The notes under the pieces are model-generated. The model was not told where the DNA came from. It did not search any database and worked only from the letters and a program-made list of their open reading frames with translations. From a virus: 43,319 bases of DNA. Both the position numbers and the translations under genes were made by a program. Every line of letters starts with the position of its first letter. The stretch's first letter is position 1. The DNA is taken from positions 1-43,319 of the IMG/VR virus record IMGVR_UViG_3300030104_002853. The stretch is one strand, 5' to 3'. Shown here piece by piece: positions 7,691-38,191 of this stretch.

Positions 7691-8027
7691 AAAACCAAGT
7701 ATATTAAAACAAGCTACTGATACTAAATTAGATGGTGCGTATGCAGACTTACAAGCAATACCAAATGACCCAGAGTTTGGTGGAGGTGTAAAGCAACAAC
7801 AAATGATAGATGCTGTTCAATCTACAGGTGGTATGCCACCTGCTGCATTAGCTCAACCTGCTTTTAAACCACAAGATTTATTTGCTTTACCTACGGAAAG
7901 AGAAGCTGAATCTGGATTGGCTGACAGTAATCCAATGCAAGAAGTAGGACTTAATCCTGGTTCTGATACACAAATATTAATAGATATAATTAAAGAGGAA
8001 TCTCCTACTGCCAGACTGAGGTTCTAA
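7683..8027 (+). CDS. Hypothetical virion-region protein, 114 aa
   Basis: The frame is open from ATG 7668, but GTG 7683 is preferred because AAGGAGG is correctly spaced before it (M-V-R-K-P-S-I-L-K-Q). The protein is rich in Gln, Pro, Ala and Asp and looks partly disordered (Q-Q-Q-M-I-D-A-V-Q, then M-P-P-A-A-L-A-Q-P). It overlaps the 67-aa gene by 8 bases, and its stop overlaps the giant gene (TAATG at 8027), so expression of the three is coupled. Family is not recognised. Confidence 0.65.
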   Translation: MVRKPSILKQATDTKLDGAYADLQAIPNDPEFGGGVKQQQMIDAVQSTGGMPPAALAQPAFKPQDLFALPTEREAESGLADSNPMQEVGLNPGSDTQILIDIIKEESPTARLRF

Positions 8028-11000
8028 TGTCTTTTTGGAACAAAGACTGGGAAACCAATCATTTTAAATATCTTCAATATGAAAAAACAAAAGACGCTAA
8101 AAAAGCATCTTTAGGTGGAGATGCTACAGAGTTAACGAATAAATATAATCACTTTAAAGATTTAAACCCTAATGAAATAGATGAAGTTATTGCACCTGCT
8201 GCAAGTTTAAATATTACTAACAAACAATATTACGATATTTATAGAAACACAAAGTCTGCTCCAATAACAACAAATAATAGTAAACCTGTAAAAGTTAATG
8301 ATGAATTAAAAAAAGTTGGAATGACTGAAGGATTATATGATGCTGAATTTGTATCTAAATCATTTGATGAATATAACGAATCAGCTTTATTTGGAGGACG
8401 TGTATTAATACAGACTCTTCTTTTTGGTTTAAATTATGTAGGTGAAGGTTTTAACAGGTGGTTACAAAATAATATTTCAACACCTTTTTCTAGGCATCAA
8501 GAAGATGTAGTTAGAGAGTATGGTCCAAAAATAGGAATGACTCAAGAAGATATGTTTGAGTTTGAACAAAAGGGAGACAATGTTGACCAACAAGATATAA
8601 AGGCTTTTGGTTTAAGAGCAATTACTGCTTTTAAGGTTTTAAATGACATTGGTGTTACAGGTCCATTACCAAGAGGTATAGCTAAAATAGCACCTGAATC
8701 TGATTTAGCAAAATTTATAAATGCAGAAATTAATAACATAGAAGCAAAAAATGAAAATTATTTAGTAGCTAAAGGTGTTACAGATGAAAATGGAAACCCT
8801 TATACAACAAGAAGTCAAATGGATGTTTTATCAGAAATTGTAGGAGAAGAATATCAAAGTCTTATAAGACTAAAAGAAAGAGGTCAGCAAAGAGATTTAA
8901 CAGAATTAGAAAAAATAGGTATTGGTTTAGAAGCCTATGGAAATATTGTTGGAGAAGAAGTTAATGCTAATGATTTTTTAAATTTAATTATGGAACCAGA
9001 AGCGTTACAAGCAAATAGAGAAGATAGAGAAGGTTACACACGAGCAGGTATTCCTGCTAATCCAGGAGACTTTATTATGTATTTTGGTACAGGTAATCTT
9101 CATGGTAGATATAGTCCACAAAATGTAATTTATGAAGATATTAAAAATACTTATGATGACAAAATACTAGAAGCAGAAGAAGCATTTAGAAATAATTTAA
9201 TAAATATAGATGAAAAAAATAATATAGTTTTTAATTTAGAAAACGAAAAAGATGCAGCATTATCTGAACGTGGATTTGAAGCTAATAATGGAGTAGCAGG
9301 ATTATTTGGTGGACTTATAAATGCTTATATATGGTTACAAACAGACCCTTTTTATGCACTTTCTAAAGGTGTAGGGGTAGCAGGAAAAGCTGCTAATAAT
9401 GATGTCTTAGCAGGTATAGGCAAAAAAATGAAAGAGTTTATTGATGATGGTGGTAGCTTAGATGATTTTTGGAATCAACATGATGATGTTTTAAGAGGGC
9501 TATCTAACGAGTTAGATTCTATGAATAAAGTAGAAGAGTTACCAGTTTTTAAAAGGCTTATTGATAGTGGGTTTAATCATAAATTTGCTAGGCAAGTAGT
9601 AGATGCAGCAGACTCAGATTCAATATATCAGTTGTTAAAAGATGCACCTGCTCAAGGTTATGTATCAGATATGGTTTATGGTAAACAATCAATAGGTAAG
9701 TTAGGACAATACAGAATACAATCTAAAGTTCTTAGTTCAAAATTATTAACAGCTATAAGAAATAAAACTATTGATGGTAGAAGAGGTGGAACTTTTAAAG
9801 AAATAATAGAAGGTACAGATATAAGATTACCTAATGATGGTGCAGGTGTAGAAATAGATTTAAGAGATACACAAAATGCAGTAGTTATTTTTTCAAGAGT
9901 ATCTACATTATTTAAAGTTCCAGAAGCTAGAGCTAATAAATTATTATTAGATTTTCAAAAAGCAATAGATGATGGATTATATACTAAAGCACAAGAGATA
10001 TATTATGATGGTCTTCTTATAACAGAAGGTTCTTTACAACTTAGACATTTATTTGGAATGACAGATGATGAAATAAGATTGTTTTGGCATGGTGATAAAA
10101 AAACAAAAGGTGCTTTAAAAAGAGTTAAAAGAGGATTTGATGATACTGAGGGTTTTAAAAAACCTAGTAGAAATGAAATGTATTTTGATGGTGATGAAGT
10201 AGATATATTAACTCAAAGACAATTTGGTCATCAAGTAAATGATTTAGCAGGATTAAAAGATTTTGAAGACCAATCTATTGAACTTCTTAGTCAATTTACA
10301 GGATATGGTATAGAAGTTCCTGATGTTATAAAAGCAATAAAAGCTACCAGTCAAAGAAGAAGACTTAGGGCAAAAGTAGTAATAGAAAAAGAAGGCATTG
10401 ATGAAGTTACTGCTGCTGCAAGAAAAGCATTTGATGAAGGTAAATCAGGAACTATTTATGACCCTGATACACCAATAGGAAAAATAATAAATGAAATAGC
10501 TCCTGGAGTAGATGACCCTTCACTTTTATTTAAAGGACAAGAAGCAGGATTATCTGCTATAGAAAAAGGTACTTTTGGTTATGTAAGAAGTCTTTGGTAC
10601 CCACTTGCTTTGTTAGGAAGATTTTCATATCCATCTAAATTAATTATTGATGGTAATTTAAGAATGTCTTTACTAGGCGTAAGGTCAATGTTTAGAGGAA
10701 ACCCTCTTAATTATATAAAACTTATGATGAATGACGAAGCAGGTTTGTTGTCTAAAATATTTGGTAAACCATCTACATCTTTAAAAGGTCCATGGAAAAA
10801 ACATTCAGAAGATTTTAAAAAATTTAAAAAATTAGAAGAAAAAATACCTGCATGGGTAAGAAAAAAATTAAATATCTTTGTTGACTCTGCAGAACGTGGT
10901 ATTCCAGAATTAGATGGTGTTATGTCTGCAAGTCCTACTTTTACATTTCGTAAAGGAAATGGTGATACAGGATATTATTTAGTTAATAAAATAGGACAAA

Positions 11001-14000
11001 AGAATGTTCCTACACCTGAAGGAGAAATGCTTGATTTTGTATTAGATGATTCTTATATAGAAGCCTATGCAGAATATTTATTTCAATATATAGATGATGA
11101 CCTTGGTATGGTTGTTGCTACATTAATGAGAGATGGACATGATGCAACATCAATATCTAAAATTATTCAAGAGACACCATCTTTGCGTGGGATAGTTGAA
11201 GAATCAAATAAAATGATGTTGTCAAGAAGTAAATACCATCCTGGAACTATACCAATAGCTACTGGTTCAGATAGTTATGATAAATTAGCTAGACATTATG
11301 TAAACACTTTAAATAATTACACAGGTGGACATGACGAAATATTAGAAATAATAGCTAATGGTAGAGTAGGTAAAATTGGTGGTAGAACAACAGTAGATTT
11401 AAGGTCAGTAGATTCTATGTCTCCAAACCAATATTCAAGATATTATCAAAGACTTAAAAAATTAGTAGGAAGGTATCAAGATGATTTGCCTTCACAAATT
11501 CCAAAACAAAAAGAAGTTGTTGAGGATGTAAAAAGTTATCAAAAATTTATGAACGCTTTATTTTATGCTACTGCACAATTTGAATTTAACCTTGCAAGAC
11601 TACCTTTAATTAGACAAGCGTATGAATGGTATTTGCAATCAACAATAGGTTTTGCTAGTAAAGGTGCTTTAAATGATTTGTTAAATGCACATTTAGATGA
11701 TGCTTCAAATATAAATTTAAGTGATGAAATGTTTGAATTGGTTCAAAAAGAATATGATAAAGTTAAAGATTTAGTTTCAGATGTTTCTATTGTAGATAGA
11801 AAAGTACCTATTAAAGTATTTGATAATGGTGATTCATTGTCTATTATTGGTTATTCTGAAAATGGTCAACAGTCTTTAACTGTATTAAAAAGATTTAATG
11901 CAAATAAAGATTCTTTAGATTTAGATTTAGATTTATATAATACTGAATTAAAAACTTTTAAAACTCAAAGAAAAGTTGCTGACTATAGAGTAGGAGAAGA
12001 CTCAGATGCAATAGGTGTTTATAACTTTTCTATTAATAAATCAGAAGCAATTATTGATGGTGCTTTACCAAACAAAGAATTATTAATCAATACTATTGCA
12101 GATTCTTTTAATACTACTACAGATACTGCAACTAAATTAGTAGATGAAGCTATTGAATATCTTGCTAAAACAAAAGGCAAATTTGATTTACCGACTAATC
12201 AAAGAGAATTGTTTGAATTACTGGGTATTACTGGTAATGATGCTAATTTAATAAAACTTGAAAGAGTATTGCAATCAGGAAAAATGGCAGGAAAAAAAGA
12301 AACAGGTAAAAAACAAGATGTAGGTATTTCAACAATAGAAAGAGTGTTAGGTACAAAACTATCATCAAGAAATCTTTTTCGTAAAAAAGGTTCTGTTGAT
12401 GAAAAAACAGAACAAGTATTTAATGACCTAGGAGCAAAATCTATGTCAGGAGAAACAGGAGGTAGTTATGATTTAGGTTTAGATACGTTTGTAGAAAAGC
12501 CTGGATTATACGTATCTCCTTATGGAGCAAGAGAAGTTATTGTTAAAAACGATTTAACTAAAGCAATAATTAAAAAATATATAGAAAAAAATAAATCTAT
12601 ATTAAGTAAAGAAAATCATTATTTAGGTGTATGGGTTGATGAAAAAGGTGCAACTCATTTAGATATAACTGTAAGAATAGATAGAGGTGTAGGTGCAAAT
12701 GTTGTTAATGCTAGTGATGAAGCATTAGCTAAAGCACAATATTTAGGAATAATGTCTAAACAAAAAGCTATAGGAAATGTATCTGAAACAGGTTATGAAG
12801 ATATACTTACTATGAATAATCCAGATGCTTTTGATGTAATAAGAAGAGCAGGTCAAGATTTATTAAATACATCTGCTCAAAGAAAAGCATTTAATCCTAA
12901 TAAAGCTATAACAGTATCTGCAGTAGGTAAAGTTAGACCTTATGATATTCTTGATAAAGCAGGTATTAGAGCTATTGTAAATCAAAAAGCAGGTAACGTA
13001 TCAATACTTAAACCAAATAATAATCCAATTATGGAACGTGTATTTAGTGGTGATTATCAATCAATGCTAGATATGAATGATATTAAAACAGGATTGCCAA
13101 GGAACATGACTATGGATGATTTGCATGACAGAGCTTGGGAGTATGCTTTTGAATTGCACTCAAGGTTACTTTATAACTTAACAGAGAGAGGTTATTTTTC
13201 TCAAGCATACAGAATAGGATTTGCTTTCTTTGAAGCATGGAGAGAAGTAATAGGTAGATATGCAAACTTAGCTCTGGCTAACCCTAAAGCTGTTGCTCAA
13301 ATAGGATTTGGAGTTAGAAAAGGAATTGAACACAATTATATATACGAAGATAAATATGGTGATAAACATTTAATAATACCAGTAGGTGGAACTCCGTTTG
13401 AAGATTTAATTAAAAGTGAAGGTAGAGGTATGTGGACAGATGATACAGAAGTAGATGATTCAAGTATTATTGCAAAAAGAAGTTTTCCTTTAACTGGAAT
13501 GTTAGTAGGTGGTGGTGGATTGTTTCCACCAGTAGGACCTGCACTTATGATTCCAACTGGTTTGTTAGTATCAGAAAATCCTGGAGGTAAACGTTTATTA
13601 GAAAAATGGATATTTGGTGGTTTTGAATTACAGTTTGCAAATGTAAATTCTTTAGAAGATTTACCTGCAGCAATAGTAAATAGCACTATGCCATCCGTAG
13701 CTAAAAATACATTAAATGCTGCTGCTTTAAATTTTGGTAAAAAAGGTTTAGATGAAGATATGTGGTTTTCATCAGTTAATCAAGGCTATCAAATTGCAGG
13801 GTTATTACGTCCTGATTTATCTACAGACGTTGAGGCTTTAGAAGAAGTTGCTTTACAACTAGCAACAAACTATATGCAAATAAAAGCATGGGATAGATTT
13901 ATAAATCCTATGGCTCCAAGATTACACGTTATGTATGAGGTAGAAGGAAACGAAGCTGTATTTAAAAAATGGTATGACGAAAGTGGAGCAGACCATGGTC

Positions 14001-14932
14001 TTATGTATAACAACTTTGTAGAGATAGCAGCAATTATGGGATTTTATAATGATATAAAAGATGAATATGTTATGAAGTTAGGACAACAAGGAGAGTTTTA
14101 CGCATTATTAGAAATATCAAAATTATTAGGTCTTGATAGACATAACTTAGCTGAAGCATTTACTTCTACTGCTTTACAAATAAAGGGTAAGAATATTTCT
14201 GAAGGTGGAAGATTACCTAGAACAACAAAAGAATATGATTTTGTATTAGACAATCCAGAATTAGCAGCAGATTATGGACCAGTTATTACTTATTTTGCTT
14301 CAGGATTAGATGAAGGTAAAGTAGATTATTCAGGATTTGGTTCTATTAAAAACTTAGGTCTCATGAGACCTAAAACTAATGATGAGTTTTATTTTTCTGT
14401 TCAAACTTATCTTGCATCTATTGTTGAAAAAGGACAAAAAGATTATTGGTCTCAAGTTATTGACAACAGTACAACAGACCCAGGAGAAAGAGCAGCTAAG
14501 AAAAAAGCTAAATTTGCTTTAATAGAAAATGAAACAAAAAAAATGTTTCCAATGGCTTATGGTAGTTCTGCAGAATTAAATAAAGTATTAGGTATGGATT
14601 ATGAATTTGGAGTACCAAATGATGTAATGATTGATTACTTTAACAGAGCTGTAAAAGATTCTAGGTTTAAAGATTTTGAAATGACTGATGAATTAACAGA
14701 GTATTTAGGTTATAGACAAACAGTAATAGACAAAATACAAGTAGAAAAATTAATGCCTATGGAAGAAGATGCTGTAAATTGGCTTATGAGGAATGAATCT
14801 CCAGCAGCTCAAGCAATTAGGGAAGAGCTGTTTACAAAAGCTCAGATAATAGGCAGAAAAAACCCAAAGTTTCTGATAGTATTTGAAGAGGTATTCAGTT
14901 ACGAACTTACAAAATTTGGATTAGGAGATTAA
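8027..14932 (+). CDS. Giant 2301-aa virion or polyvalent-type protein
   Basis: The largest gene here, a single uninterrupted frame. Most of it is helical and charged and not recognised. Two features stand out. Around residues 1525-1590 there is Y-L-G-V-W-V-D-E-K-G then H-L-D-I-T-V-R-I, followed by a helix ending in K-Q-K-A-I-G, a pattern resembling a small domain found in phage polyvalent proteins. Around residue 1830 a glycine/proline-rich hydrophobic stretch (V-G-G-G-G-L-F-P-P-V-G-P) could insert in or cross a membrane. Its place between portal and capsid genes suits an internal or ejected protein, like the large internal proteins of T7-like phages. No catalytic motif was found. Confidence 0.8.
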   Translation: MSFWNKDWETNHFKYLQYEKTKDAKKASLGGDATELTNKYNHFKDLNPNEIDEVIAPAASLNITNKQYYDIYRNTKSAPITTNNSKPVKVNDELKKVGMTEGLYDAEFVSKSFDEYNESALFGGRVLIQTLLFGLNYVGEGFNRWLQNNISTPFSRHQEDVVREYGPKIGMTQEDMFEFEQKGDNVDQQDIKAFGLRAITAFKVLNDIGVTGPLPRGIAKIAPESDLAKFINAEINNIEAKNENYLVAKGVTDENGNPYTTRSQMDVLSEIVGEEYQSLIRLKERGQQRDLTELEKIGIGLEAYGNIVGEEVNANDFLNLIMEPEALQANREDREGYTRAGIPANPGDFIMYFGTGNLHGRYSPQNVIYEDIKNTYDDKILEAEEAFRNNLINIDEKNNIVFNLENEKDAALSERGFEANNGVAGLFGGLINAYIWLQTDPFYALSKGVGVAGKAANNDVLAGIGKKMKEFIDDGGSLDDFWNQHDDVLRGLSNELDSMNKVEELPVFKRLIDSGFNHKFARQVVDAADSDSIYQLLKDAPAQGYVSDMVYGKQSIGKLGQYRIQSKVLSSKLLTAIRNKTIDGRRGGTFKEIIEGTDIRLPNDGAGVEIDLRDTQNAVVIFSRVSTLFKVPEARANKLLLDFQKAIDDGLYTKAQEIYYDGLLITEGSLQLRHLFGMTDDEIRLFWHGDKKTKGALKRVKRGFDDTEGFKKPSRNEMYFDGDEVDILTQRQFGHQVNDLAGLKDFEDQSIELLSQFTGYGIEVPDVIKAIKATSQRRRLRAKVVIEKEGIDEVTAAARKAFDEGKSGTIYDPDTPIGKIINEIAPGVDDPSLLFKGQEAGLSAIEKGTFGYVRSLWYPLALLGRFSYPSKLIIDGNLRMSLLGVRSMFRGNPLNYIKLMMNDEAGLLSKIFGKPSTSLKGPWKKHSEDFKKFKKLEEKIPAWVRKKLNIFVDSAERGIPELDGVMSASPTFTFRKGNGDTGYYLVNKIGQKNVPTPEGEMLDFVLDDSYIEAYAEYLFQYIDDDLGMVVATLMRDGHDATSISKIIQETPSLRGIVEESNKMMLSRSKYHPGTIPIATGSDSYDKLARHYVNTLNNYTGGHDEILEIIANGRVGKIGGRTTVDLRSVDSMSPNQYSRYYQRLKKLVGRYQDDLPSQIPKQKEVVEDVKSYQKFMNALFYATAQFEFNLARLPLIRQAYEWYLQSTIGFASKGALNDLLNAHLDDASNINLSDEMFELVQKEYDKVKDLVSDVSIVDRKVPIKVFDNGDSLSIIGYSENGQQSLTVLKRFNANKDSLDLDLDLYNTELKTFKTQRKVADYRVGEDSDAIGVYNFSINKSEAIIDGALPNKELLINTIADSFNTTTDTATKLVDEAIEYLAKTKGKFDLPTNQRELFELLGITGNDANLIKLERVLQSGKMAGKKETGKKQDVGISTIERVLGTKLSSRNLFRKKGSVDEKTEQVFNDLGAKSMSGETGGSYDLGLDTFVEKPGLYVSPYGAREVIVKNDLTKAIIKKYIEKNKSILSKENHYLGVWVDEKGATHLDITVRIDRGVGANVVNASDEALAKAQYLGIMSKQKAIGNVSETGYEDILTMNNPDAFDVIRRAGQDLLNTSAQRKAFNPNKAITVSAVGKVRPYDILDKAGIRAIVNQKAGNVSILKPNNNPIMERVFSGDYQSMLDMNDIKTGLPRNMTMDDLHDRAWEYAFELHSRLLYNLTERGYFSQAYRIGFAFFEAWREVIGRYANLALANPKAVAQIGFGVRKGIEHNYIYEDKYGDKHLIIPVGGTPFEDLIKSEGRGMWTDDTEVDDSSIIAKRSFPLTGMLVGGGGLFPPVGPALMIPTGLLVSENPGGKRLLEKWIFGGFELQFANVNSLEDLPAAIVNSTMPSVAKNTLNAAALNFGKKGLDEDMWFSSVNQGYQIAGLLRPDLSTDVEALEEVALQLATNYMQIKAWDRFINPMAPRLHVMYEVEGNEAVFKKWYDESGADHGLMYNNFVEIAAIMGFYNDIKDEYVMKLGQQGEFYALLEISKLLGLDRHNLAEAFTSTALQIKGKNISEGGRLPRTTKEYDFVLDNPELAADYGPVITYFASGLDEGKVDYSGFGSIKNLGLMRPKTNDEFYFSVQTYLASIVEKGQKDYWSQVIDNSTTDPGERAAKKKAKFALIENETKKMFPMAYGSSAELNKVLGMDYEFGVPNDVMIDYFNRAVKDSRFKDFEMTDELTEYLGYRQTVIDKIQVEKLMPMEEDAVNWLMRNESPAAQAIREELFTKAQIIGRKNPKFLIVFEEVFSYELTKFGLGD

Positions 14933-28986: not shown

Positions 28987-28992
28987 TATAAT
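28987..28992 (+). promoter_or_regulatory. -10 element 8 nt before the fibre gene
   Basis: TATAAT (28987-28992) lies only 8 nt upstream of ATG 29001, so transcription would start at or next to the start codon. There is no clear -35. No strong Shine-Dalgarno fits between, consistent with a leaderless transcript. Confidence 0.5.
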
Positions 28993-30710: not shown

Positions 30711-31532
30711 ATGGCTGGACCAACATCATTCGGTTATCAAAACGTAGGTTTCGGAGGAGGCGTAGCAGCAGCTTCTGCTTTTGATATACAATATGTAATT
30801 ATATCAGGTGGTGGTGGTGCTGAAATAGGTGGTGGTGGTGCTGGTGGTGCTTCAGATAATATTTCAAGTCCTACAACTATATCTGCTGGAGAAACTTTAA
30901 CTGTAACTGTTGGTGGAGGTGGTTCAAGACAAAACCCAGGAGGTACTTCATCTATCGTATCTACAACTATTGGAACAGTAAGTGTTGTAGGTGGTGGTGG
31001 AGGTTCAGGCTCTAACGATAATGCTGATGCAGGTGCGTGTGGTGGTGCAGGTGCAAGAGGTAACAACGGTAAATCTGGAAACATCGGTGGTAACGGTGGT
31101 AACGGAGGAGGCGTTAATGGTGGTGGAGGTGGTGGAGGCATGACTGGCAATGGTGGTAACGCTGTTGGTGGTGGTGGTGCAGGAACTGCTAACGCAACTT
31201 ATGGAACATGGGCTACAGATACATCTTCAGGCTCTGGTGGCAGATATGCTGGTGGAGGTGGAGGTGGAGGACAAAACGGTGGTGCTGGTGGAGGTGCTGG
31301 TGGTGGTGCTTCAGGTTCTCAAAATAATGGTGGTGCAGGAACTGCTAACACAGGTGGTGGTGGTGGTGGAGGCTGGAACTCTGCAGGAGGTGTTGGAGGT
31401 TCAGGCATAGTTTTAATTAGATATCCTGAAACTGCAGGTGAAGTTGCAAGTTCAAATGGTTCTCCTGATACTTCAACAGGTAATGATTTTAGATATTATA
31501 AATTTACAGGCTCTGGAGCATTGACATTATAA
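30711..31532 (+). CDS. Glycine-rich tail tip protein, 273 aa
   Basis: More than half of the middle is glycine blocks (G-G-G-G-A-G-G-A, G-G-N-G-G-N-G-G-G). The blocks resemble the polyglycine-helix bundles seen at the tips of some phage fibres, which present variable recognition loops. The ends are more ordered: F-D-I-Q-Y-V-I-I-S at the start and I-V-L-I-R-Y-P then F-R-Y-Y-K-F-T at the end. Placed after the fibre gene, it is probably an adhesin attached to it. Long GGT runs make this region easy for replication slippage to vary. Confidence 0.7.
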   Translation: MAGPTSFGYQNVGFGGGVAAASAFDIQYVIISGGGGAEIGGGGAGGASDNISSPTTISAGETLTVTVGGGGSRQNPGGTSSIVSTTIGTVSVVGGGGGSGSNDNADAGACGGAGARGNNGKSGNIGGNGGNGGGVNGGGGGGGMTGNGGNAVGGGGAGTANATYGTWATDTSSGSGGRYAGGGGGGGQNGGAGGGAGGGASGSQNNGGAGTANTGGGGGGGWNSAGGVGGSGIVLIRYPETAGEVASSNGSPDTSTGNDFRYYKFTGSGALTL

Positions 31533-31909
31533 TGGCTCATTTTGCACAACTTGATGGAGATAATAAAGTAATTAATGTTATTGTTGTAGCTGATGCAATT
31601 ATAACAAATTCAGAAGATGAACAAGTAGAACAACTAGGAATAGATTTTTGTAAAGCTACATATGGAAATGATACTAATTGGAAACAAACATCTATTACAG
31701 ATAGTATGAGAAAAGAATATGCAGGTATTGGTGGTGTTTATAATGCAACTAAAAATATATTTATTGCACCTCAACCTTATGAAAGCTGGTCTTTAAATTC
31801 TGATGACGATTGGGTTGCACCTATTACAAAACCTGATGATGGAAATGTATATATTTGGGATGAAGATGCTTACCAAGCAGATAATTCTGAGGGTTGGGTA
31901 CAATTATAA
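31532..31909 (+). CDS. Fibre-associated conserved protein, 125 aa
   Basis: It begins M-A-H-F-A-Q-L-D-G-D-N-K-V and later has R-K-E-Y-A-G-I-G-G-V-Y-N, P-Q-P-Y-E-S-W and a Trp-ending tail. Small proteins of this pattern are widespread in marine cyanophages and other marine phages next to tail fibre genes. They are probable small structural parts, but the role is not settled. The start overlaps the preceding stop (TAATG). It closes the virion region before the metabolic cassette. Confidence 0.65.
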   Translation: MAHFAQLDGDNKVINVIVVADAIITNSEDEQVEQLGIDFCKATYGNDTNWKQTSITDSMRKEYAGIGGVYNATKNIFIAPQPYESWSLNSDDDWVAPITKPDDGNVYIWDEDAYQADNSEGWVQL

Positions 31910-31930: not shown

Positions 31931-32515
31931 ATGAAAGGTGGAGAAATGTTAACAGAAATAAAAGTAATAAAAGATTTTTTAACTCCTACATATCATAAAG
32001 AATTATTAAACAGTTTAGATAGTTTTAATATGCCATGGTTTTTACAAAAAAATATATCTTTAGAAGAAGATGACGAATCATCACATAAAAATTTTGGATT
32101 TAATAGAACATATTATGATGAAAATGGATGGCGTGGAGATTACACAGTAGAGATTATGAAACCTGTAGTATATCAAATTATGGACACAGTTGGTGGAATA
32201 CAACCTTTAAGAGTAAGAGCAGATATGACTATGCAAAGTGATGAAGAACATAAACATGGAATACATATTGATTATCCAACTGCTAATATAACTACAATTT
32301 TATATATAAATGATAGTGATGGAGATACAATATTTTATAAAGAAAGAACTTCCGATACAACTAAAAGATATAAGCCTAGTGATTTAAACGAAATGAAAAG
32401 AATAACACCTGTAGCAAATTCACTTGTAATCTTTGATGGATTTCAATTACACACAGGATGTTCTCCTATGAAAAATAGTAATAGGATTCTTATCAACTCT
32501 AATTATTTAGTATGA
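31931..32515 (+). CDS. 2OG-Fe(II) oxygenase-like protein, 194 aa
   Basis: Fe(II)/2-oxoglutarate enzymes use O2 to hydroxylate or otherwise oxidise a substrate. The iron motif appears as H-x-D in H-G-I-H-I-D-Y (about residues 111-117) and a distal H in Q-L-H-T-G-C (about 176), and an R about 12 residues later (N-R-I-L-I-N-S) fits the 2OG-binding Arg. Before the second H comes the usual D-G-F-Q strand. The frame can start at ATG 31931 or ATG 31946. It overlaps the next gene by ATGA. The substrate is unknown. Other marine phages carry small 2OG oxygenases near tail genes. Confidence 0.75.
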   Translation: MKGGEMLTEIKVIKDFLTPTYHKELLNSLDSFNMPWFLQKNISLEEDDESSHKNFGFNRTYYDENGWRGDYTVEIMKPVVYQIMDTVGGIQPLRVRADMTMQSDEEHKHGIHIDYPTANITTILYINDSDGDTIFYKERTSDTTKRYKPSDLNEMKRITPVANSLVIFDGFQLHTGCSPMKNSNRILINSNYLV

Positions 32516-33255
32516 AAGTAGAATTTATACCTTCAAGAAAAGATTACGAATTATTTCTTGAACTTTTTCCACCTCAATTAAGTAATAAATTTTTACCTGA
32601 ATGGTATAAAAAAGGAACAAAACTTAAAGGAAGTGAAAGACATGGTAATTTTAAACATCAAATAAATCCTGTAGCTAACCCACCAATAACAATAAAAAGT
32701 TGCCCAGCAATAGTTGATGCTGTTACTGAAGGAATAATAATTCCTTTATGGGGTTCATTAGATTTTGCTACAGAAAAACATCCTGATGATGTAGTTACTA
32801 ATCATTGGGATTTTACAGGAAGACATATTAACCAATCAGATATATCAGAACATATTCAATATCATAAAAAAAACCAATTAGAAGGTATGCCTGTAAATAC
32901 ACTTGCAGATGAAAGTATATTAAAACTTACTATGCCTTACAAAGTTATAGTACCTGAAGGATATAATATATATTATACTGACCCATTTTATCATTTTAGA
33001 AAATCTATTCGTTTGCTTAGTGGTGTAGTTGAAGCTGATAAATGGGGTTATGTTACATTTGTATTTGAGGTATTAGAAGAAAATTTTAGAATTGAAGCAG
33101 GAGAACCTTTAGTACAATTATTTATTTATAAAAGAGAAGAAGAAAAAATTAATCTTACTTGTCGTAATGGTACCTTAGACGAGTATGACCAGGTTGTTAA
33201 AGAACATAGAGAATTATTTGTAACAGAAAAAAATTATAAAACAAAAGATAAATGA
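32512..33255 (+). CDS. Uncharacterised cassette protein, 247 aa
   Basis: The protein has F-L-P-E-W-Y-K near residues 29-35, then S-C-P-A-I-V-D-A, G-I-I-I-P-L-W-G, and V-P-E-G-Y-N-I-Y-Y-T-D-P. The final part is beta-rich, F-R-I-E-A-G-E-P-L-V-Q-L. This pattern looks familiar from marine phage genomes, where it accompanies oxygenase genes. I cannot assign it to a named family, and no catalytic motif is evident. It overlaps both neighbours by ATGA, so it is made together with the oxygenase and halogenase, suggesting a shared job. Confidence 0.65.
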   Translation: MKVEFIPSRKDYELFLELFPPQLSNKFLPEWYKKGTKLKGSERHGNFKHQINPVANPPITIKSCPAIVDAVTEGIIIPLWGSLDFATEKHPDDVVTNHWDFTGRHINQSDISEHIQYHKKNQLEGMPVNTLADESILKLTMPYKVIVPEGYNIYYTDPFYHFRKSIRLLSGVVEADKWGYVTFVFEVLEENFRIEAGEPLVQLFIYKREEEKINLTCRNGTLDEYDQVVKEHRELFVTEKNYKTKDK

Positions 33256-34349
33256 AACTTGCTATATTAGGTAAAGGTACTGCAGGTGCGTTAGCTTTAA
33301 ATCATTTTAATTCTTACACTAATTACGAAATAGATGTTTACTACGACAGTAACATTAAAGAACAAACTGTTGGCGAAGGCACTACATTACACATACCTAC
33401 AAGATTAAATTACACACTAGGAATGAACTGGGAAGATGTTAGAAATCTTAATGGAACAGTAAAAACAGGTATTTATTATGATGGTTGGTCATCTAATAAT
33501 TACTTTCATAGTTTTTATTTACCTGCAGCATCCATACATATAGATGCTGTAAAGTTACAAAATTATTTATTAGAAAAAAATATACTTGAAAGAAACAAAT
33601 GTAACCTAATAGATAAAAATGTAGATGCAAATGAAGTTGATGCTGATTATGTAATTGATTGTACTGGTAAACCTAATGATTATTCTAATTATGTTTTAAC
33701 TAACAATATAAATGTTAATGCTGTATGTGTATCTCAATACAAACCAATTAAATCTTTAGACCATACTTTGTGTACTGCAATGAAAAATGGTTGGATGTTT
33801 GGAATACCTTTGCAAGATAGAATATCTTTTGGTTATTTATACAATGCAGATATATCTACTGAAGATGAAATAAAAAAAGAAATGAAAACACATTTAAGAA
33901 AAAGAGAGTATGTAAATGAATTGTATACAAACAGTTTTAATTTTAAAAATTATTACCATCAACACAACTTTGTAGAAGATGTTGCACATAATGGTAACGC
34001 ATCATTCTTTCTTGAACCTTTAGAAGCAACAAGTTTAGCTTTAGTAGATAAAATAAATAGATGGACCTATGAAATATTAAACAATACGATTACACAAGAA
34101 CAAGCTAACTATTTTTACAAACAATATGTTAAACAAATAGAAATTGTTATTGGATTGCATTACTTAAATCCTATAATAAAAAGTAAATTTTGGGAATATG
34201 CAAAAAACAATAGCCAATATATAACTAAAGATTCTTCTTTTATAGATATTGTAAATAATTTAGCAAATGATAATTTTATTTTTGAAGATTATGGCACTTG
34301 GAACAAAGATAGTTTTAAACAAAATCTAAGAGGTTTGAATATATTATGA
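33252..34349 (+). CDS. Flavin-dependent halogenase-like protein, 365 aa
   Basis: These enzymes use reduced FAD and O2 to make hypohalous acid for halogenation of indoles or similar rings. Visible motifs are G-K-G-T-A-G (7-12) of the FAD site, V-G-E-G-T (40-44), K71 in V-K-T-G-I-Y, which fits the catalytic Lys, W-M-F-G-I-P (181-186) in place of the usual W-x-W-x-I-P, and E-P-L-E-A-T (255-260) with the Glu (E258) that fits the second active-site residue. It is shorter than cellular enzymes (about 500 aa). With Phe for the second Trp, another activity such as monooxygenation is possible. A FADH2 partner is needed. Confidence 0.75.
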   Translation: MKLAILGKGTAGALALNHFNSYTNYEIDVYYDSNIKEQTVGEGTTLHIPTRLNYTLGMNWEDVRNLNGTVKTGIYYDGWSSNNYFHSFYLPAASIHIDAVKLQNYLLEKNILERNKCNLIDKNVDANEVDADYVIDCTGKPNDYSNYVLTNNINVNAVCVSQYKPIKSLDHTLCTAMKNGWMFGIPLQDRISFGYLYNADISTEDEIKKEMKTHLRKREYVNELYTNSFNFKNYYHQHNFVEDVAHNGNASFFLEPLEATSLALVDKINRWTYEILNNTITQEQANYFYKQYVKQIEIVIGLHYLNPIIKSKFWEYAKNNSQYITKDSSFIDIVNNLANDNFIFEDYGTWNKDSFKQNLRGLNIL

Positions 34350-34355
34350 TATAAT
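34347..34355 (+). promoter_or_regulatory. Extended -10 promoter of the ferredoxin gene
   Basis: TGA-TATAAT (34347-34355) in the shared 11-mer TATGATATAAT ends 8 nt before ATG 34364. It gives the ferredoxin its own probably leaderless mRNA, and it overlaps the stop codon of the halogenase gene. Confidence 0.6.
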
Positions 34356-34363
34356 CTTTCAAC

Positions 34364-34612
34364 ATGAAAGTATGGATTGACCAAGACCTTTGTACTGGTG
34401 ATGGACTATGCGAAGAAATAGCACCTGATGTTTTTGTTGGATTAGATGATGGTCTATTTTATGTCAAAGAAGGCGACAAAGTTTACGCTGAAGCAGAAGG
34501 TAATGTAGAAGGAGCAAAAGGTTTAGCTTTAGTTCCAAAAGGTTTAGAAGAAGCAGTAATAGAATCAGCAGAGGAATGTCCTGGCGAATGTATAATGATA
34601 GAACCTAATTAA
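34364..34612 (+). CDS. Single-cluster ferredoxin, 82 aa
   Basis: An iron-sulphur electron carrier. The first motif is C10-x2-D13-x2-C16 (C-T-G-D-G-L-C), followed by E-E-I-A-P-D-V-F. The last cysteine pair is at C72-P and C76. An Asp at the position of the second Cys suits a [3Fe-4S] or labile [4Fe-4S] cluster. The sequence style is that of small actinobacterial ferredoxins which feed oxygenases and P450s. It may supply electrons to the neighbouring halogenase and oxygenase, although a flavin reductase is not present. The possible leaderless promoter suggests tight control. Confidence 0.8.
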   Translation: MKVWIDQDLCTGDGLCEEIAPDVFVGLDDGLFYVKEGDKVYAEAEGNVEGAKGLALVPKGLEEAVIESAEECPGECIMIEPN

Positions 34613-34617
34613 ATCTA

Positions 34618-34626
34618 TGCTATAAT
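34618..34626 (+). promoter_or_regulatory. Extended -10 promoter of the small membrane protein genes
   Basis: TGC-TATAAT (34618-34626) ends 8 nt before ATG 34635. It is a fourth case in this window of a -10 element immediately before a start codon, again without a plausible -35. Confidence 0.5.
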
Positions 34627-35223: not shown

Positions 35224-37203
35224 GTGCTATTTAGATTAGTATTAGCATTCTTTCTTGCTTTACCAATACCACCAATATACGCAGAAGAAGTAGAAGAAGT
35301 AGAAACCTTTGATGATGGAGAACAAACTACTGATATTGGAGTACCTCCAACTGAAAACAATAACTTAGTAAAGATAGACAATACTTGGTCAGGTTCTTAT
35401 GGTATGGATGGTCATCATATAGAACTAGAGTATATGAAACATGGTGGTACATCTAATGATTATGAATTTACATTACCTACAGAACATGATGTGTATGAAG
35501 TAGGTTTTACTATAGGTGCTGTTAATAATCAAGGTAGTGTTGAGTACACACACAATGATGAAACTACACAATCAAATACTATTGATGCACAGAGTGGTTT
35601 AAATAATGCGACTATGTATGAAGATATAGTTTATTCTGTTAAAGAAACAGCTAATAAATTTATAGATAGTTTTGTTATTACTATTAATGATTGGTCATTG
35701 GTAGATGATATATCAATTAAATATGATACTACTACTACTACTACTACTTTAAATCCTTTAGATGTACAACGCCAGGCTAACTTTGCTTCTTATGGTATAT
35801 CAGAAACTAATGATGAACGAGGTATAAGAGAAGAACAAGAGGAAGAACAAAAACAAATTGAGATAGCTATTGTTCAAGAAGCTGAAGAAATGTCAGACAA
35901 CATGGCAGAGACTGGTTACAACGAAACTGACCAAGAGAGAGAAGAAAGAGAAGCATTAACTAATGTTGTTATTGTTGTTGGAGATGAAGAAGTTACTTAC
36001 ACAGAGAAGGAACAGAATGATGGTACTATTAATAGAGATAAGGAACGTGCTAACAATGAAAATTTATATGGTTGTTATATTACTGATGCTGCTTTGGAAC
36101 GTGGCGATTGTGATTTTACTGAAGAAGTTATAGATGAAGAAGAAATCGGAGAAGAGTTTTTTGAAGATGATGATATGGTACTCATTGTGGCAGATGAATA
36201 TGAAGATGAAGAGTTTATTGAGCTTACTGAAGAAGAGTTGGAGATATTTGAGTTTGACACTAAAGAGGAAGCTGAAGAATTTGTTGAGACCTATCTTGAG
36301 ATTGAAGAATACATTGAAGAACTTGAAGTCTTTGAAGAAGAAGTTATTGTTATAGAAGAGGAGATAGATTTAATAGATATATTTATATCTAATGATTTAT
36401 TTCCACCAACAGAAGAAGAAATTAAAGAAGATTTAAAAAAGGTACAGGATGAGTTGGACCAAAAGATACTACGAAATGACATTATTACAGAAGATATTAT
36501 ACAAGATAAAGAAGAAGTTCTTTCTGAAGAGATGGTTGAGGAAGAAGTTGCAGAGCTAGAAGAAGTTATAGAAGAGATTATTGTTATTGATATACCTGAA
36601 GTTACTGAAGAAGAGTTAGAAGAATATACAGAAGAGGAGTTAGTTGAGTATGAAGAAGCTAAAGAAGAAGCAATACAAGAGTTTGTACAAGAGCTTGAAA
36701 CCGAAGAAGTTATAGAAGTTATAGAAGAAGTTAATGATATTGGTGTACAAAATCTATCCGAAGCAACAGAGGAAGTACAAGAGATAGTACAGGCTGTAGT
36801 TGAAGAAGCTATTGAAGAGATAGAAGAGTTAACTGAAGAACAGGTTGAAGTCGTTGCTGAAGTATTACAAGTAGAAACAGAAGATGTTGAGATTATTGCT
36901 GAAGCTGTTAAAGAAGATGAATCAGTTGCTACTGCTGTTGAAGAATATGTTGAGAGAGCTGTAGAAAATAAAGATGTAGAAAACTATACACTTGCTGATG
37001 TTGTAACAGAGGTACAGTATGAGGAGTTCCTAGAGAATCCAATAGAAGTTTTTGTGGACTTTGATAACTTAGAAAAAATAAACCTTGAAAATATAGGAGA
37101 TGATATGACATCAGACCAGAGAGAAAAAGCTCAAGAAGTTGTAGTGCCTGTAATTTTGACTAGAATAGCTAGTATGGCAGCGTTTATATTAAGGAAGTCA
37201 TAA
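35224..37203 (+). CDS. Secreted hyperacidic repeat protein, 659 aa
   Basis: The first 20 residues form a signal peptide (L-F-R-L-V-L-A-F-F-L-A-L, then P-P-I-Y-A before E-E-V-E-E). The next 180 residues are more beta-like, with a T-T-T-T-T-T-T run at about residues 164-171. Then comes a long Glu-dominated part (E-E-L-E-I-F-E, V-E-V-I-E-E-V-N). Related segments S-E-T-N-D-E-R-G-I-R-E-E and N-E-T-D-Q-E-R-E-E-R-E suggest an internal duplication. The C-terminal 20 residues are hydrophobic (V-I-L-T-R-I-A-S-M-A-A-F), ending R-K-S. A secreted, membrane-anchored polyanion could bind calcium or modify the envelope. The start is a GTG with no well-placed ribosome site. Confidence 0.7.
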   Translation: MLFRLVLAFFLALPIPPIYAEEVEEVETFDDGEQTTDIGVPPTENNNLVKIDNTWSGSYGMDGHHIELEYMKHGGTSNDYEFTLPTEHDVYEVGFTIGAVNNQGSVEYTHNDETTQSNTIDAQSGLNNATMYEDIVYSVKETANKFIDSFVITINDWSLVDDISIKYDTTTTTTTLNPLDVQRQANFASYGISETNDERGIREEQEEEQKQIEIAIVQEAEEMSDNMAETGYNETDQEREEREALTNVVIVVGDEEVTYTEKEQNDGTINRDKERANNENLYGCYITDAALERGDCDFTEEVIDEEEIGEEFFEDDDMVLIVADEYEDEEFIELTEEELEIFEFDTKEEAEEFVETYLEIEEYIEELEVFEEEVIVIEEEIDLIDIFISNDLFPPTEEEIKEDLKKVQDELDQKILRNDIITEDIIQDKEEVLSEEMVEEEVAELEEVIEEIIVIDIPEVTEEELEEYTEEELVEYEEAKEEAIQEFVQELETEEVIEVIEEVNDIGVQNLSEATEEVQEIVQAVVEEAIEEIEELTEEQVEVVAEVLQVETEDVEIIAEAVKEDESVATAVEEYVERAVENKDVENYTLADVVTEVQYEEFLENPIEVFVDFDNLEKINLENIGDDMTSDQREKAQEVVVPVILTRIASMAAFILRKS

Positions 37204-37418
37204 TGTTTAAAAAGATATGGGCTTGGCTCATTGAAATAATTAAAGAAACTTTAAATCTTAGTTGGACTTTAGTAGGTTTAGTTATCGCTACACTTACATT
37301 GACAGGTTCAGCTCAACAGGTTACAGGTCTTGCAACTTTAATTACATTAGCAGTATGGTTACTTACCATAGGATTTAGAAAAGATAAAACTAAAGTAAAC
37401 AAGTCAGCAAGTAGATAA
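37203..37418 (+). CDS. Two-helix membrane protein, holin-like, 71 aa
   Basis: Two hydrophobic helices (T-L-V-G-L-V-I-A-T-L and A-T-L-I-T-L-A-V-W-L-L) with a basic tail (R-K-D-K-T-K-V-N-K). The layout matches small holins, which make membrane holes at lysis. Its start overlaps the hyperacidic protein stop by one base (TAATG). A second holin-like gene lies at 38191-38469, so one may be an antiholin. Confidence 0.6.
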   Translation: MFKKIWAWLIEIIKETLNLSWTLVGLVIATLTLTGSAQQVTGLATLITLAVWLLTIGFRKDKTKVNKSASR

Positions 37419-37427
37419 GGAGATAAA

Positions 37428-37607
37428 GTGGACAAACTACAAAAAATAATAAAAGAATTATTGTCTGTAAAAGTAGACGATAAACCTTTGTTTGGTATTT
37501 CAGTTTTAGAAAATAATGATACTGTATATTTAACAGGAATCCATGCAAACAGAGGAATAGCTATTAATATGCCAACAGAAAATAAAGAAGGAGAGGAAGA
37601 AGAATGA
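37428..37607 (+). CDS. Small acidic protein, 59 aa
   Basis: A GTG-start frame (M-D-K-L-Q-K-I-I-K-E-L-L) with AAGGAG upstream, ending in a Glu-only tail (G-E-E-E-E). The GAGGAAGAAGA coding this tail is also the ribosome site of the next gene, whose ATG overlaps the stop (ATGA). No family is recognised. It sits between a holin-like and a DUF5675-like gene. Confidence 0.6.
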   Translation: MDKLQKIIKELLSVKVDDKPLFGISVLENNDTVYLTGIHANRGIAINMPTENKEGEEEE

Positions 37608-38191
37608 AACTGCAAGTAGTAAGAACACAGTTTGGTAAAGATGCAACTAATGGTTTGTTATTTATTGATGGTGTGTTTGAGTGTTATACATTAGAGGACC
37701 AGTACCAAGTAGAGAAAGTAATGCACGAAACCTGCATACCTGAAGGTACATATGATATAGAGTTTAGAAAGACTGGTGGATTTCACGCTAAGTATTCAGA
37801 TAGATATAAGAATGCACATTATGGTATGTTACATTTACAAGATGTACCAGGATTTACATATATCCTAATCCATACAGGTAATACTGATGAACATACATCA
37901 GGTTGTTTAATTGTAGGAGAAACACAACAAGACCTAGATATAAACTTTAATGGTATGGTCGGAAGTTCAGCCGTAGCGTACAAAAAAATGTATGCGAAGG
38001 TAGCAAATCAATTACTACAAGGTAAGAAAGTTACCATAGAATACAGCAAGATAGACTTAGATAATAAAGAATTAAGTAACGCTGCTAGTCCAGATTTAAT
38101 TAAACCAGATAGTGTTTATGAAAAACTACAAGAGATAAGTGGGGAGATTCAAGTTCTCTCTGCTAAACTTGATGGAAAGGACATTGTATAA
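37604..38191 (+). CDS. DUF5675-like lysis or cell-wall protein, 195 aa
   Basis: The N-terminal 140 residues match the DUF5675 pattern: C-Y-T-L-E-D-Q near 28-34, P-E-G-T-Y near 47-51, then I-H-T-G-N near 90-94 and T-S-G-C near 99-102. His and Cys in this spacing suggest an L,D-transpeptidase-like active site, so peptidoglycan remodelling or cleavage is likely but not proven. The C-terminal 50 residues are a short coiled coil (V-Y-E-K-L-Q-E-I-S-G-E-I). It lies between two holin-like genes, as an endolysin would. Confidence 0.7.
   Translation: MKLQVVRTQFGKDATNGLLFIDGVFECYTLEDQYQVEKVMHETCIPEGTYDIEFRKTGGFHAKYSDRYKNAHYGMLHLQDVPGFTYILIHTGNTDEHTSGCLIVGETQQDLDINFNGMVGSSAVAYKKMYAKVANQLLQGKKVTIEYSKIDLDNKELSNAASPDLIKPDSVYEKLQEISGEIQVLSAKLDGKDIV

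Follow-up and report, generated by a model that had tools for sequence, protein, structure and literature searches.

What does a phage use a halogenase for, and do the genes that lie beside it belong to the same system? Phage halogenases are already known, and one viral halogenase, VirX1, has been studied in vitro as a biocatalyst; no natural substrate is given for it in the literature searched. A 43.3 kb IMG/VR virus record (IMGVR_UViG_3300030104_002853, positions 1-43,319, the whole of which is called the window here) raises both questions, as it carries an oxygenase gene, a gene that had been left unnamed, a gene for a halogenase-like enzyme and a ferredoxin gene in a row. An earlier note had suggested that the four gene products form one redox pathway. 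The best explanation that we can offer, which is held tentatively, is that the first three genes form a tail-region cassette that modifies a tail or surface macromolecule, with the unnamed protein acting as a partner, and that the ferredoxin is an unrelated gene derived from the host.

Gene content and layout of the cassette

The features discussed in the text are as follows.

31532..31909, plus strand: small tail-region protein with a conserved P-[YF]-x-S-W motif (phrog_7759, 2.5e-38), upstream neighbour of OXY
31946..32515, plus strand: OXY, Fe(II)/2-oxoglutarate dioxygenase (PF13640, 2OG-FeII_Oxy_3, 4.9e-6); start in the earlier note 31931 (194 aa)
32512..33255, plus strand: DUF6065 protein, predicted dUTPase/dCTP-deaminase-like fold (PF19541, 1.4e-6; phrog_7084, 1.7e-43; 247 aa)
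33252..34349, plus strand: HAL, short flavin-dependent halogenase (PF04820, Trp_halogenase, 1.5e-33; phrog_2928, 7.7e-73; 365 aa)
33270..33287, plus strand: GxGxxG flavin-binding signature, HAL residues 7-12 (alignment of 39 relatives)
33462..33464, plus strand: HAL K71, aligned with the catalytic Lys of flavin-dependent halogenases (FDHs; PrnA K79; alignment to FDHs in the PDB)
34023..34025, plus strand: HAL E258, aligned with the catalytic Glu of FDHs (PrnA E346, EPLEST; alignment)
34350..34355, plus strand: TATAAT box, 8 nt 5' of the FDX ATG
34364..34612, plus strand: FDX, single [4Fe-4S]/[3Fe-4S]-type ferredoxin, CxxDxxC...C (PF13459, Fer4_15, 4.5e-15; 82 aa)

The four open reading frames were found where they had been placed (31931-32515, 32512-33255, 33252-34349 and 34364-34612), and the first three are joined by ATGA overlaps at 32512-32515 and 33252-33255, so that in the tail region the oxygenase, DUF6065 and halogenase genes make up a single overlapping unit. 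The oxygenase, halogenase and ferredoxin keep the names that the earlier note gave them, as each is named by Pfam, and the unnamed protein is a DUF6065 protein; the first three products have matches in both Pfam and PHROGs, the ferredoxin in Pfam alone. The earlier note placed the cassette between tail and lysis genes. Phrog matches to tail proteins bear out the tail neighbours, but lysis genes on the other side are only suggested, by hydrophobic stretches at 37203-37418 with no Pfam match and by a DUF5675 protein (Pfam) at 37604-38191. In agreement with the earlier note, a Pfam scan of the larger ORFs of the window gave no flavin reductase domain. Rfam and tRNA searches of the regions examined gave no match.

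The halogenase

The AlphaFold2 model of HAL, built on 39 sequences, has a pLDDT of 95.0, and all of the best PDB matches listed are FDHs, VirX1 included, with a TMq of ~0.8. In 39 phage relatives G7, G9 and K71 are invariant (K71 in 39/39), and G12 and E258 are each kept in at least 90%, E258 being replaced by Asp in three relatives (L095, L099 and L107). The flavin-binding signature, the predicted fold and the catalytic residues are thus all present, which agrees with the naming of HAL as a flavin-dependent halogenase-like enzyme. PrnA, RebH, PyrH and MibH, the last of which acts on a peptide, have the predicted fold, the flavin signature and the catalytic Lys and Glu in common with HAL, but the classical flavin-dependent tryptophan halogenases are ~150 residues longer, and identity in the structural matches is 15-19%. 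Classical FDHs also carry the motif WxWxIP, whereas HAL has W-x-F-x-I-P (GWMFGIP), in which the first Trp and the IP are kept and the second Trp is replaced by Phe. Because of this replacement, the reaction of HAL could be halogenation or plain oxygenation. Known FDHs take free FADH2 from flavin reductases. A scan of viral contigs with the single HAL protein gave no match.

The DUF6065 protein

The AlphaFold2 model of the DUF6065 protein has a pLDDT of 87.7. The 50 PDB structures in the Foldseek listing all belong to the dUTPases or the dCTP deaminases, with TM-scores of ~0.35-0.6 depending on target length, a high rmsd in many rows and E <0.001 in 2 of the 50. HMM searches of the PDB gave nine matches, all weak and all to dUTPases, with the similarity at the motif III-IV region. 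In an alignment of 31 sequences W31, C64, H118, G150, D176 and K207 are invariant; three cyanophage copies keep W31, C64, H118 and R208 and not G150, D176 or K207. When the same alignment was inspected for the catalytic motifs of dUTPases, motif II and the motif III Tyr were not recognisable, and the first motif III Asp is often Glu. For this reason DUF6065 is classed as a relative by fold only and not as a dUTPase. The predicted fold is shared with the dUTPase/dCTP deaminase family, but DUF6065 has conserved residues of its own (W31, C64, H118 and R208) as well as added N-terminal and inserted segments.

No mention of DUF6065 was found in the literature searched, and a scan of genome contigs with a DUF6065 alignment gave no relatives. 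An assignment as SapC was rejected, as Pfam scans gave no PF07277 match; in the control genome of Caulobacter vibrioides both PF07277 and PF19541 match. A 275-aa protein encoded between DUF6065 genes (L070/L051) was also considered as a relative and set aside, with an hhalign probability of 0.2%.

DUF6065 is found without HAL in haloviruses, in cyanophage S-RIM4 and on rhizobial plasmids, and it therefore cannot be solely a halogenase partner. In halovirus HF2 (L110) and S-RIM4 (L109) the gene lies near ribonucleotide reductase genes, which may hint at a nucleotide ligand. The rhizobial plasmid genes (L111-L114) lie near genes for an S8 serine peptidase and an ECF-type sigma factor. In another phage lineage that lacks HAL, the DUF6065 gene overlaps a ferredoxin gene (L051:5261-6264, L054:5265-6249, L063:534-1543).

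DUF6065 and HAL as a pair

The pairing of DUF6065 with HAL is conserved in phages. Of 32 DUF6065 clusters, 15 have HAL within 2.5 kb, whereas of 80 tail-region loci that were picked by another gene without regard to HAL only 2 have it within 3 kb (p=3e-8), the two distance windows differing slightly and the cluster counts coming from pattern-limited searches on contig fragments in which at most 80 loci were kept. The pair occurs in three arrangements (DUF6065 then HAL, HAL then DUF6065, and divergent), the two genes overlap or are separated by gaps that are mostly <300 bp, and DUF6065 genes often stand two or three in a row, next to HAL. The two proteins also diverge together across 13 lineages (Mantel r=0.61, p=2e-4), although genome phylogeny alone may explain this correlation wholly or in part.

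The order OXY-DUF6065-HAL is kept in the closest relative of the window (L087). DUF6065 and HAL are each ~72-73% identical between the two, as against ~89-94% for the three preceding genes, which is consistent with an exchange of DUF6065 and HAL as one unit. The dN/dS values for this comparison are ~0.17 for DUF6065, 0.32 for HAL and ~0.11 for OXY and the small tail protein; all four are therefore under purifying selection.

A HAL gene that adjoins a DUF6065 gene in the tail region was found in the window and in the cyanophages Syn10, P-TIM40 and S-RIM44. The VirX1 gene product of Syn10 is identical to PDB entry 6qgm over 530 residues, the start residue excepted. Its gene overlaps a DUF6065 gene (phrog_7084, E 1.8e-71). 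A tail-fibre assembly gene precedes the two and a long series of 2OG-Fe(II)/JmjC genes follows them, and the gene order in P-TIM40 and S-RIM44 matches that of Syn10. The cyanophage clusters and the window share a phrog_2928 halogenase, an overlapping or adjoining DUF6065 gene, 2OG-Fe(II) oxygenases in the same run and a position directly behind tail-fibre (assembly) genes. They differ in that the cyanophages have two full-length halogenases (~507-530 aa in Syn10), many oxygenases and another gene order, whereas the window has one halogenase of 365 aa and one oxygenase. The window is a compact version of the cyanophage VirX1 cluster. Cellular relatives of the halogenase on two plasmids adjoin genes for TonB-dependent receptors, which are surface proteins, so that here too a halogenase gene lies next to a surface-protein gene; the other neighbours are glycoside hydrolases, and no DUF6065 or 2OG oxygenase is annotated in the two regions.

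The oxygenase and the small tail protein

Numbered from 31931, the iron ligands of OXY are H112-x-D114 (32264-32272) and H174 (32450-32452), followed by R185; H112 and H174 are invariant in 13 relatives. OXY matches phrog_274 (1.2e-41), which is labelled 'DNA endonuclease V', a label that looks wrong because the PF13640 match and the HxD...H ligands indicate a 2OG-Fe(II) oxygenase. Many cyanophage records also label the family 'DNA endonuclease V/DenV'. Relatives of OXY lie near 27/57 HAL clusters compared with 16/80 tail loci (p=7e-4). OXY was also considered as a specific partner of DUF6065, and this was rejected (10/32 compared with 16/80 tail loci, p=0.15).

The small protein encoded upstream of OXY has an invariant Trp (W86) in the alignment, and its family (L277-L356) is found in at least 599 IMG/VR stretches and has no Pfam family match. 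It is, speculatively, one of several candidate substrates. A role as the specific substrate was rejected, as OXY adjoins it in 9/80 cases compared with 5.6 expected from random placement (p ~0.06).

The ferredoxin and the host

The cluster residues of FDX are C10, D13, C16, C72 and C76, with the ligands arranged as CxxDxxC...C as in the ferredoxin of P. furiosus, and the phmmer matches include the solved ferredoxins 1siz and 1rof. FDX is 84-89% identical to a gene of Ca. Actinomarina (L115-L130), which has a WYL regulator, a tRNA methyltransferase and TatC as neighbours. Of the matched IMG/VR stretches, 351 hold close relatives; none were found in the INPHARED phages. Phage and host copies interleave in the FDX tree, where supported branches require the label to change at least four times, and by this tree the gene appears to have moved repeatedly between host and phage. 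In the Nitrospirota phages of Lake Baikal (PMC7678222) the phage ferredoxin is likewise close to the host copy, but the host group of FDX is a different one, the Acidimicrobiia (Ca. Actinomarinales), and its tree holds repeated transfers.

FDX ties this phage group to Ca. Actinomarinales, and the host is probably a member of these marine Actinobacteria. The assignment is based on the ferredoxin together with a genome size and G+C content similar to those of published Actinomarina phages (PMC5628999). The first bona fide phages of Ca. Actinomarinales were obtained from single-cell genomes (PMC7771536). The phage terminase was not found in 21 Actinomarina and related genomes, a result that is uninformative on the host.

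The four-gene order proposed in the earlier note holds in relatives for its first part, as OXY-DUF6065-HAL is present in L087 and DUF6065-HAL in many phages, but it does not extend to the ferredoxin. None of the 22 DUF6065/HAL records searched, among them a close relative of 40.6 kb, has a ferredoxin gene, and HAL is present in only 1/39 ferredoxin-bearing records of at least 20 kb. L087 has the cassette, but there HAL is followed by an empty site in place of the ferredoxin gene, ahead of the next gene. Because it is absent from the 22 records, rare beside HAL and missing from this site, the ferredoxin is best regarded as a host gene that is gained and lost independently; it scatters in relatives and so drops out of the proposed pathway. 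The distribution and the empty site led us to reject it as the electron donor of the cassette.

Proposed function of the cassette

In the mechanism that we favor, HAL would use FADH2 from the host cell, O2 and halide, which is abundant in sea water, to form hypohalous acid, and K71 and E258 would direct the acid onto an aromatic ring. DUF6065 would be a dedicated partner of HAL with a dUTPase fold, probably oligomeric, whose role is most likely to bind or present the substrate and not to hydrolyse dUTP, and OXY would add a second oxidation. Since the genes of the window and those of the cyanophages follow immediately after tail-fibre genes, in unrelated phages, the most likely target would be a tail-fibre or other surface macromolecule (the side chain of a Tyr or Trp, or a group attached to it); the two bacterial cousins that adjoin surface-protein genes also point to a surface or virion target. 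The gene identities, the predicted folds, the conservation of residues, the pairing of DUF6065 with HAL and the independence of the ferredoxin come from the analysis itself, and the reaction, the partner role of DUF6065, the host and the target are what we infer. It is conceivable, if unlikely, that DUF6065 and HAL are a two-component protein-modification system in which DUF6065 selects the tail-fibre or receptor-binding protein and HAL halogenates or hydroxylates its aromatic residues, and that this is the native role of VirX1. If true, such a modification of tail fibres would change host recognition or stability. The pairing of DUF6065 with HAL and its tail-fibre setting are a concrete lead to what viral halogenases do.

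The main rival to a surface target is a soluble one, on account of the dUTPase-like predicted fold of DUF6065 and of the ribonucleotide reductase genes close to it in S-RIM4 and HF2. DUF6065 would then keep nucleotide binding, and HAL and OXY would modify a nucleotide or small aromatic compound, altering host metabolism or DNA bases; a review has proposed host metabolites as the targets of cyanophage halogenases (PMC10452541). However, the unrecognisable dUTPase motifs speak against this, as does the location of the HAL-linked DUF6065 copies in the late tail region and not with replication genes, and we regard a soluble target as rather improbable, though less so than the alternatives that follow. 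It is doubtful that the locus is only an accessory hotspot, in which unrelated genes are parked behind the tail genes and each acts alone. Such an arrangement suits the ferredoxin and also the relatives of OXY, often found near tail loci (16/80), but not DUF6065 and HAL, which occur together in three arrangements, in podovirus-like as well as T4-like phages, and far more often than the tail loci would lead one to expect.

A redox chain of all four products, in which the ferredoxin and a host reductase pass electrons to the halogenase or the oxygenase, is by far the least probable of these readings. The ferredoxin gene does adjoin the cassette in the window, and in L011 it adjoins a version that lacks OXY; DUF6065 overlaps a ferredoxin gene in the separate lineage that lacks HAL (L051, L061, L063). 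Against these stand its absence from all 22 DUF6065/HAL records, the empty site in L087, the single HAL among 39 ferredoxin records and the supply of known FDHs with free FADH2 by flavin reductases. The preferred reading remains a cassette of OXY, DUF6065 and HAL that acts at the tail or surface.

Gene starts and promoters

The OXY gene probably starts at 31946 and not at 31931, because L087 has no ATG at the position of 31931 and keeps AAGGTGGAGAA-ATG at 31946. A separate ORF of 2301 aa at 8027-14932 of the window has no Pfam match and probably encodes a virion protein.

The ferredoxin gene had been credited with a promoter of its own. The TATAAT box is there, but a promoter is plausible only. 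Most relatives lack TATAAT at the ferredoxin start, which 3/60 have. Over the whole window TATAAT is not more frequent than expected by chance; it lies no more than 22 bp upstream of 5/30 gene starts compared with 1.06% of background positions, OXY being among the five only if the earlier start (31931) is used. TATAAT also precedes the next gene (34621-34626) and the ferredoxin gene of L011. In the tail region, boxes occur shortly before an ATG at 28987, 31918, 34350, 34621 and 34935, and these are possible leaderless promoters of the kind known from Actinobacteria.
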